DNA from: an uncultured Eggerthellaceae bacterium
GTDB taxonomy: Bacteria; Actinomycetota; Coriobacteriia; Coriobacteriales; Eggerthellaceae
Assembly: GCA_944320405.1 (NCBI GenBank)
Contig: CALUHI010000030.1
Coordinates: forward strand, 1 to 64,000
DNA length: 64,000 bases
Reading direction: 5' to 3'
Shown here in pieces: positions 31,369 through 33,971 of the stretch (position 1 is the first letter of the stretch; every line of letters starts with the position of its first letter). The position numbers and the translations under genes were made by a program. The notes under the pieces are model-generated. The model was not told where the DNA came from, did not search any database, and saw nothing but the letters and a program-made list of their open reading frames with translations.

Positions 31369-32316
31369 CTAGTTGTTCACCGCTAGACGCGATGCGAACG
31401 TGCCCAGCGGCTTGGGGCCAAGCGACTCCGCATCTTTTGCCTGGTCGATCATCGTGCCGATGCCTTTGTCGGTGAGAAGCTCGAGCAGCAGGGCGTGAGG
31501 CGTGGTGCCGTTTATGATGTGCGCACGGTGAACGCCGGATTCCATCGCGTAGATGCATGAGCGCATCTTGGGAATCATGCCCGTGGCCAAAGTGCCGCCT
31601 GCCACCAGCTCCTGCGCCTCGGCAAGCGTCATGCGCGAGACAAGCGAATCCTTGTTGGAGAAATCCTCGTAAAGCCCGTCGACGTCGGTGAGGAAAATCA
31701 CCTTGTGAGCGCCGATGGCGGCCGCCACGTGCCCCGCGACCACGTCGGCGTTGACGTTGTAGAAACCGCCCGCCTCGTCGATACCCACCGTGGCGAGCAC
31801 GGGAATGAAGTCGCTTGCCACGAGGTCTTCCACCAGCTGGCTGTTGACGCGCTCCACCTTCCCCACGCGCCCCAAGCGCACGTCCGCCTGACTGGCGACG
31901 ATGGTACCAGCGTCCGCGCCGCTGATGCCCACCGCAAGGTTGCCATGGACGTTGATGGCAGCCACGAGCTCTTGGTTCACCTTGCCGGTGAGCACGGTCC
32001 GCACAACCTCCATGGCTGCATCGGTGGTAACGCGCTGGCCGTCAACGAAGCGGACGTCGAGTTGCTCGCGCTCCATCGCTTCGGTGATTGCCTTCCCGCC
32101 GCCGTGGACGATCACCGGATTGACGCCGATGATCTTCAGCAAAACGATGTCGGCCATAACCGCCGCACGCAATTCCGCGTCCACCATGGCAGCCCCGCCG
32201 TACTTGATGACGATGGTCTTGCCGGTGCAGTTCTTGATCCAAGGCATAGCCTCGGTCAGCACCTCCGCCGTCCGGCTAGACACCCCATTAGGCCGCGTCT
32301 CTTTGTCGTAATTCAT
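31369..32316 (-). CDS. argB: acetylglutamate kinase
   Basis: 315 residues, amino-acid kinase fold. KTIVIKYGGAAMVD near residue 33 and VIVHGGGKAI are the ATP and acetylglutamate sites; GFYNVNADVVAGHVAAAIGAHKVIFLTDVDGLY is typical. It is often the arginine-inhibited step when ArgJ recycles the acetyl group, and the N-terminal helix (RTAEVLTEAMPWI) of arginine-sensitive enzymes is present. It follows the 230-base gap that holds the 120-bp inverted-repeat element. Confidence 0.97.
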   Translation of the reverse strand: MNYDKETRPNGVSSRTAEVLTEAMPWIKNCTGKTIVIKYGGAAMVDAELRAAVMADIVLLKIIGVNPVIVHGGGKAITEAMEREQLDVRFVDGQRVTTDAAMEVVRTVLTGKVNQELVAAINVHGNLAVGISGADAGTIVASQADVRLGRVGKVERVNSQLVEDLVASDFIPVLATVGIDEAGGFYNVNADVVAGHVAAAIGAHKVIFLTDVDGLYEDFSNKDSLVSRMTLAEAQELVAGGTLATGMIPKMRSCIYAMESGVHRAHIINGTTPHALLLELLTDKGIGTMIDQAKDAESLGPKPLGTFASRLAVNN

Positions 32317-32413
32317 ACCCTCACAACTCCAATATATTCCCCGCCCGCCAATCCCCCAGCCGAGCGGAATTCTAACGATCAGCCCTGTTTGCTGCCCTTT
32401 TCAACCCGAAGAA

Positions 32414-32533
32414 GGCTCGGACGCGGAGGGGGAGGGCCCGTGCTCAAACAGTCCTGAGCTCGCACGAAACGCCCACTGGGCGTTTCGGCTCGTGCGGAAC
32501 TGCGCGCGGACCCTCCCCCTCCGCGTCCGAGCC
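32414..32533. repeat. 120-bp element with perfect 23-bp inverted ends and inner hairpin
   Basis: Arms at 32414-32436 and 32511-32533 are exact inverted copies (left begins GGCTCGGACGCGGAGG). Inside lies a second stem AACGCCCA/TGGGCGTT (about 32468-32484) extended by CGCACG/CGTGCG. It fills the argJ-argB gap. It could be a miniature mobile element or a large RNA stem protecting or attenuating the arg message. No T run follows on either strand, so it is not a standard terminator. Confidence 0.7.
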
Positions 32534-32546
32534 GTCCCACTTGAAG

Positions 32547-33782
32547 CTAGGTTCGGTAATCCCCGTTGATCGTTATGTATTCATGCGAGAAGTCACAGGT
32601 CCAAACAGTGGTTTTCGCATCTCCTGCACCAAGGTCGATATCCAGCACGATCTCGGGGTCCTCGAAGCGCTTGAGCGCCTCCTCTTCGCTGAAGGGCACC
32701 GTCATGCCGTCGCGGCACACCGGCAGCCCCATGATGTCGATGGAGACGTCCTCTTGGTTGAAGCGCGCGCCGGAACGGCCAATGGCGCCGGCGATGCGGC
32801 CCCAGTTCGCGTCGTGACCAGTGATGGCCGTCTTCACGAGGGGCGAGTTCGCCACCGTGCGTGCAGCGGCATCGGCGTCGGCGTCGTTCGCCGCGCCCGT
32901 CACGTTGACGGTCACCAGGCGCGTGGCGCCTTCGCCGTCTGCTGCCATCTGGCGGGCCAGGTTCATGCATACCGCTTGGAGCGCTTCCTCGAACGCAGCG
33001 AAGGCGGGGCTGCCCTCAGCAAACGGAGCAGCGCCCGGCGCAGCGACGCCCGAGGCAAACAGCAAGCAGGTGTCGTTGGTGGAGGTGTCGCCGTCCACCG
33101 TCACCTTGTTGAAGCTCACGTTCGCCGCACGCAACAGCGCGTCGTGAAGCACGTTCGCTTGGATTGGGGCGTCGGTAGTGATGATGCTGATCATCGTGGC
33201 CATGTTGGGCATGATCATGCCGGAGCCCTTCGCCATGCCGCCCACGGTGAACGTGCACCCGGCGTACACGGGGTCGTCGACCGTGAACGAAACGGCCGCT
33301 TCTTTGGGGTGCGTGTCGGTGGTCATGATCGCGCATGCAGCGTCGTGCCCGCCCTCGCGCGAGAGCTTTTCCAGCGCCAGCGGGACGCCCGTCTCGAAGG
33401 GACCAAGGGGAAGATGTTGGCCGATCACGCCAGTCGAAGCCACCATGACCTCTTGCGCAGGGCAGCCAACGGCGTCGCCGACAATGCGCGCCATCTCGCG
33501 TGCCGCCTCCATGCCGCGCTCTCCTGTTGCTGCGTTCGCAATGCCCGAGTTGACCGCTGCCGCACGCGCAATGCCGTACGACACGCCTTCCAGGTGCTCG
33601 CGCGACACCACTACCGGTGCTGCACAGAAAACGTTCTGGGTGAATGCGCCCGCGCAAGCGCAGGGCTCGTCTGCCACCACCAACGCGAAGTCGAAACGTT
33701 CAGGATTCTTCCGGAATCCCGCATGGACGCCCGCAGCCGAAAACCCCTTCGCACTGGTGACGCCGCCTCCCTCGATGAGCAT
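32547..33782 (-). CDS. argJ: bifunctional ornithine acetyltransferase / N-acetylglutamate synthase
   Basis: 411 residues. The enzyme moves the acetyl group from acetylornithine to glutamate. The self-cleavage motif is KGSGMIMPNMATM, with nucleophilic Thr 196 after MA. ATG at 33782 is chosen for GGAGG upstream; an upstream in-frame start exists at 33809. It is the first gene after the nested terminator that follows argC and is probably driven by an AT-rich promoter in the 308-base gap. Confidence 0.96.
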   Translation of the reverse strand: MLIEGGGVTSAKGFSAAGVHAGFRKNPERFDFALVVADEPCACAGAFTQNVFCAAPVVVSREHLEGVSYGIARAAAVNSGIANAATGERGMEAAREMARIVGDAVGCPAQEVMVASTGVIGQHLPLGPFETGVPLALEKLSREGGHDAACAIMTTDTHPKEAAVSFTVDDPVYAGCTFTVGGMAKGSGMIMPNMATMISIITTDAPIQANVLHDALLRAANVSFNKVTVDGDTSTNDTCLLFASGVAAPGAAPFAEGSPAFAAFEEALQAVCMNLARQMAADGEGATRLVTVNVTGAANDADADAAARTVANSPLVKTAITGHDANWGRIAGAIGRSGARFNQEDVSIDIMGLPVCRDGMTVPFSEEEALKRFEDPEIVLDIDLGAGDAKTTVWTCDFSHEYITINGDYRT

Positions 33783-33971
33783 CTCTCGCCTTCCTCCATA
33801 GGCGCACACGCGCCGTCGAATTACACGAATCGATATTATGCACCTAATAATTCAAAATATTGTTAAGATTCTGCGAAAATATTCAAATGATTGCATATTA
33901 CTTGCGATTCGAATCACGACGAACGAAGCCGGGACCACGCCGGCGCCTCTGGGTAGATGTCGATCAACGGC
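33783..33971 (-). promoter_or_regulatory. AT-rich argJ promoter region with possible ArgR half-sites
   Basis: About 100 bases (33825-33925) are far more AT-rich than their surroundings. On the minus strand TTGAAT occurs twice, each followed downstream by -10-like hexamers (AACAAT and CATAAT), and TGAAT/TGCA steps resemble ArgR (ARG-box) half-sites. Exact boxes cannot be fixed by eye. No gene was found here. Confidence 0.45.

Follow-up and report, generated by a model that had tools for sequence, protein, structure and literature searches.

A palindrome between argJ and argB of an Aphodovivens genome is probably one copy of a dispersed, mobile element family of Coriobacteriia

The palindromic element that we analysed lies in the gap between argJ and argB in a window of 64,000 nucleotides (the window being the whole stretch of DNA studied). 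It is probably one copy of a non-autonomous, dispersed and mobile palindrome family of Coriobacteriia that works like the Rickettsia palindromic elements (RPE) and the REPs. The family is multicopy and spread over the class, and close relatives differ in the presence or absence of copies. The copies are found past stop codons and also in frame within genes, and the mismatches in their arms are strand-symmetric.

Results

Sequence and fold of the element

The features of the element and its two neighbouring genes are given below in window coordinates.

31369..32316, minus strand: argB, the next gene downstream of the element (NCBIfam)
32414..32436, plus strand: left outer arm, 23 bp, GGCTCGGACGCGGAGGGGGAGGG, a sequence specific to this copy; pairs exactly with 32511-32533
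32440..32466, plus strand: left half of the conserved core, GTGCTCAAACAGTCCTGAGCTCGCACG (fold and copy alignments)
32465..32487, plus strand: inner hairpin CGAAACGCCC-ACT-GGGCGTTTCG (fold; covaries among copies)
32486..32508, plus strand: right half of the conserved core, CGGCTCGTGCGGAACTGCGCGCG (copy alignments)
32511..32533, plus strand: right outer arm, 23 bp (sequence, repeat search and fold)
32547..33809, minus strand: argJ (NCBIfam), its stop codon lying 13 nt away from the exact arm's end at 32533

An earlier note on this DNA had described 23-bp inverted ends that enclose a second hairpin, and both were confirmed: the two arms are exact reverse complements in sequence and in the fold, and the fold places the inner hairpin at 32465-32474 / 32478-32487. 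In the repeat search the pairing of the arms extended to 36 nt at 89% identity (32411-32446 / 32501-32536). The TCAAA at 32444-32448, part of the left core half, was unpaired in the RNA fold. This fold had an energy of -100.8 kcal/mol (z -9.9), and none of 200 shuffled sequences was equally stable; the DNA folds of the two strands gave z-values of -9.7 and -11.2. In the window sequence the stem is not followed by a T-tract, and the statement that the element is not a normal terminator was therefore right. When the window was searched against Rfam, no family reached its gathering score, by which a known Rfam RNA family was ruled out; a further Rfam search returned sub-threshold matches alone, nearly all of them to miRNA hairpins.

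Copy number and taxonomic spread

A 140-bp query matched 17 separate places in the element's own genome (G000; 2.0 Mb, an Aphodovivens species of Coriobacteriia), and the covariance model also gave 17 matches there at E<=0.001. The core GTGCTCAAACAGTCCTGRGCTCGC...GGCTCGTGCGGAACTGCGCGCG was nearly identical in most of the 17 places. The comparison with its own genome, proposed in the earlier note, thus established that the element is multicopy. A single-copy structure was ruled out by these 17 places, and a single copy with no conservation, the outcome that the note had named as its refutation, was itself refuted by the multiple copies and their presence in many Coriobacteriia.

By BLAST the element was found in 16 of 41 genomes, its own included, with 20, 4 and 21 rows in the congeners G000, G001 and G002, respectively. 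The covariance model matched 76 of 149 genomes of the class, at least 10 times in 24 of these, and the largest count was at least 24. One genus included both copy-rich genomes (G104 and G171) and a copy-free one (G088). The model's matches in other orders were weak, and a long palindrome on the wrong strand alone scores up to about 49 bits. In a sample of the phylum, 9 of 149 genomes gave a match, and all nine belong to Coriobacteriia. A pattern scan of genome contigs yielded at least 111 stretches; among the 80 listed matches nearly all were titled Coriobacteriia, with one Corynebacterium and one named only as 'actinobacterium'. With one core query each, viral contigs, plasmids and phages gave no match, and carriage by them was ruled out on these grounds. 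We also searched the literature on repeats, palindromes, mobile elements and motifs of Coriobacteriia, Coriobacteriaceae, Eggerthella, Gordonibacter, Collinsella and Slackia. No earlier description of the family was found there, although most subscription papers lay outside the coverage.

Conserved core and private arms

For the comparison of copies, 154 were gathered with one core pattern and 60-nt flanks, and four own-genome copies (L005, L016, L017 and L021) fell outside this set. The conservation of the core is partly a matter of ascertainment, because the copies were gathered by core similarity. Family members are about 110-150 bp long and share an asymmetric core that hardly varies and a covarying inner hairpin. 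Their outer arms differ from copy to copy, yet they pair inside each copy: in the 154 copies the arms' own pairing had a median score of 19 and a median of 23 Watson-Crick pairs, whereas 613 cross-copy arm pairings had a median of 6 and a maximum of 13, and 149 of the 154 copies exceeded the 95% point of the latter. In an alignment of 24 copies, both partners had changed in 36 of 50 pairs; none of 500 shuffles reached any of the measures, and all slides were lower. Eight orthologous pairs of copies had flanks of 88% identity or more; their arms contained 12 one-sided changes against 5 compensated double ones, which counts against our reading. The L063/L063 row, which represents two copies within one locus, is omitted from this count.

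The distal stem of 138 copies contained 1632 Watson-Crick, 28 G.T, 33 A.C and 19 other pairs. As a control, tRNA stems of the same loci (19 tRNAs, 400 pairs) contained 371 Watson-Crick, 29 G.T and no A.C pairs, although this control may understate A.C because ARAGORN favours canonical pairs. Since there is no G.U excess among the distal-stem mismatches, the arms look maintained as palindromes at the level of DNA. We also considered selection on a minus-strand RNA, indicated by an excess of A.C over G.T in the arms (110 vs 37), and rejected it, as the excess came from positions adjacent to the core.

Several variants were noticed in addition. In L016 (G000:C17:23370-23509) and L017 (G000:C11:51658-51792) the inner part is longer and includes two additional hairpins. 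L016 also lies between two direct copies of a different repeat that looks dispersed and is similar to CAGGGGACGGTCCTGCTGTCACGTTTG. Close inverted pairs of copies occur in L029, L045, L111, L129 and L171, always in the order plus then minus.

Position of the copies relative to genes

According to our own codon-score gene caller, 116 of the 154 copies are intergenic and 38 lie inside genes, 28 of the latter with coding signal on both sides; the figure of 38 is approximate because the caller misses lower-GC genes, and the copies in murD (L052) and tsaB (L036) were called intergenic. The intergenic copies are concentrated 10-30 nt past a stop codon and in one orientation. Among copies facing a stop in the sense orientation, 66 of 81 begin no more than 40 nt away from it, four of them overlapping the called gene, compared with 9 of 40 in the opposite orientation. 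In gaps between tandem genes, 54 of 82 copies were at most 40 nt from the stop, where 22.9 would be expected, and the ratio of same to opposite orientation was 46/8 near the stop and 11/17 far from it (p 3.5e-5). Intragenic copies displayed no orientation bias (12 vs 16). The next gene often starts less than 100 nt from the copy. In-frame copies lie in murD, iorA, tsaB-rimI-tsaD and hisH, and also in recQ, trmD, a DUF1385 gene and genes for a DEAD-box helicase and for HemN-like, RNase R-like and ABC-F-like proteins, names that we took partly from Pfam domains.

The arg cluster and its argJ-argB junction in relatives

All genes of the cluster lie on the minus strand, in the order argC-argJ-[element]-argB-argD-argR-argG-argH. 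NCBIfam backs all seven assignments, argR slightly below the curated cut-off, and for argD the best match is a subfamily model. In 17 relatives from outside the genus the gap between argJ and argB does not exceed 122 bp, and it is 0 in nine of them. The copy at this junction in G000 is antisense to argJ; being near the argJ stop in the opposite orientation, it belongs to a minority class (8 of the 54 near-stop tandem copies).

The sister species G002 carries a copy of a different subtype in the sense orientation at the same junction, and the congener G001 has a 403-bp gap in which no copy was recognised. Separate insertions cannot be deduced from the opposite orientation by itself, because perfect arms could flip the core by recombination; the different subtype is a better argument that the insertions in G000 and G002 were separate. 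In the subtype seen at L225:1342-1469 and in L021, the usual inner part is swapped for CGCCCTTTG...CAAAGGGGCTGC or a similar sequence, and this is the form present at argJ-argB of G002. The G001 gap (L226) contains imperfect repeats of the kind GCTCGTGTGCAGGAGAGAG.

Signs of mobility

In hisH, a copy is present in G001, and G005 and G006 have related variants in this linker as well; the copy is absent from five aligned orthologues, those of G000 and G002 (congeners of G001), G008, G013 and G003. The hisH of G011 has a somewhat longer linker in which no copy was recognised. At hisH, recQ and tsaB-D the same site often bears copies in several genera, which could reflect long vertical inheritance. 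Copies L013, L112 and L146 were found in different genera at the same linker of the recQ protein, and L041, L099, L127, L143 and L147 at the hisH linker of different genera in both orientations. Such shared linker copies may mark a hotspot or, alternatively, may have been inherited from long ago, the core having flipped since.

The search for target-site duplications that the earlier note had advised was performed on 141 copies, and no duplication of 2-8 bp rose above the control with re-paired flanks. The stem flanks of these copies were enriched in GTCC (9 vs 1.1 expected) and in TAC/TGC (27 vs 5.2). No Y1_Tnp match was obtained in 8 of 16 copy-bearing genomes, and the domain was present in 9 of the 25 genomes in which BLAST did not find the element. 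When the ORFs between close copy pairs were inspected by eye, no transposase was noted; neither a trans factor nor a transposition event came to light. The suggestion of a miniature transposon was thus borne out in part: the element is multicopy, dispersed and found as insertions, but its arms are not conserved between copies, no target-site duplication exceeded the control, and the limited search found no partner transposase and no autonomous relative with the same ends. The idea that the arms arise by inverse duplication of the target flank was set aside, the flank motif (GTCC.../TAC or TGC) and the armless hisH orthologues speaking weakly against it.

Discussion

How could such a family spread and keep its form? 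We propose that a trans factor might recognise the core and that the element would be copied to new sites via folded single-stranded DNA or a cruciform. Templated correction at the DNA level, by strand switching in the hairpin, may keep the drifting arms complementary. Sites past stop codons would survive because they are the least harmful, and the sense orientation may be favoured because the hairpin then forms a structure at the mRNA 3' end. In the arg cluster, an insertion 13 nt past argJ probably split argJ from argB, and this separation may weaken translational coupling and thereby lower argBDRGH relative to argCJ.

The orientation bias near stops suggests a role at the RNA level, which purely selfish DNA would not predict and which would fit the earlier note's idea of a structured RNA that lowers downstream expression. 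A functional RNA as the basis of the whole family, that is, a cis-acting 3'-UTR structure selected at many sites for stabilising the upstream mRNA or attenuating the downstream gene, with mobility incidental, is possible and in our opinion somewhat unlikely. The bias after stops fits such a role, as do its absence inside genes, the conserved unpaired core positions, the U.G pairs and the highly stable fold, but the missing G.U excess in the arms does not: their mismatches are strand-symmetric, unlike those of the tRNA stems. At least 28 of the 154 copies lie inside called genes, copy counts differ strongly among congeners, the argJ-argB copy is antisense to arg and no Rfam family was matched, all of which also speak against it. 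It is very improbable that the copies act as intrinsic or bidirectional terminators. A strong GC-rich hairpin directly past stop codons would suit this purpose, but of 65 same-orientation near-stop copies 4 have TTTT in the 20 nt 3' of the stem, the next gene is often close by and some copies sit within reading frames; the missing U-tract led us to rule out an intrinsic terminator.

Two further explanations accept mobility and assign it to a known type of transposase. REPs with GTAG or CGTC tags are conserved palindromes of 20-40 bp, often accompanied by a gene for a REP-associated Y1 tyrosine transposase (RAYT). That the family is REPIN-like and moved by a RAYT seems quite unlikely. Post-stop and intragenic copies do resemble REPs as presented in the available text of PMC3733652, compensatory spacer changes also occur in REPINs according to the part of PMC3116915 at hand, and the enrichment of GTCC and TAC/TGC in the flanks is reminiscent of tagged REPs. 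However, the conserved sequence is central and not terminal, the element is three to five times the size of a REP, and dependence on Y1/RAYT was rejected on the distribution of Y1_Tnp. A classical MITE, moved by a DDE transposase that recognises terminal inverted repeats, would likewise be short, palindromic and dispersed; the copies have no terminal-arm sequence in common, and neither the flanks nor the intervals between close copies provided the duplication or the transposase, so that we give this explanation hardly any credence.

Compared with described systems, a dispersed palindrome family of Coriobacteriia comes near to several of them by description, which does not imply membership. Rickettsia provides the best-known cases of long palindromes inserted in frame into conserved enzymes. 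The Coriobacteriia element is similar to RPEs in length, palindromic structure and in-frame copies within conserved genes, but it comes from another bacterial class and combines copy-private arms with a nearly invariant central core; RPEs are palindromic hairpins of 105-146 bp, intergenic or in frame in conserved genes, in the accessible text of PMC2229807. REPs and REPINs are dispersed, often at most 20 bp from gene 3' ends, with some copies in ORFs and some paired (available portions of PMC3733652 and PMC3116915). The Coriobacteriia element is also dispersed, close past stop codons, in some cases intragenic and in some cases paired; it differs from the GTAG/CGTC-tagged class of 20-40 bp in being 110-150 bp long and conserved in its core, and Y1 is missing from half of the tested genomes that carry copies. 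From MITEs it is separated by the lack of conserved terminal repeats and of target-site duplication. Perfect inverted repeats within genes are shared with the mitochondria of Nematomorpha, where template switching or repeat conversion has been proposed as the means of keeping them perfect; the available part of that paper (PMC6649704) describes neither a common core nor a dispersed family.

A bolder proposal, which we put forward tentatively and consider rather unlikely, is that these palindromes represent a class of mobile DNA recognised solely via the bulged core in the middle of the hairpin. At each site, or through self-templating that goes on continuously, the arms would be remade as new perfect palindromes, leaving ends without sequence identity. 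If this is true, core-only recognition would differ, as a mode of transposition or maintenance, from that of TIR-based or REP-based elements, and an enzyme of Coriobacteriia would drive it.

The family would provide a second abundant system of in-frame palindromes, in culturable gut Coriobacteriia such as Collinsella, Gordonibacter, Adlercreutzia and Slackia. It would make it possible to test how such elements spread, how their arms stay perfect despite drift, and what effects they have on proteins and on operon expression.
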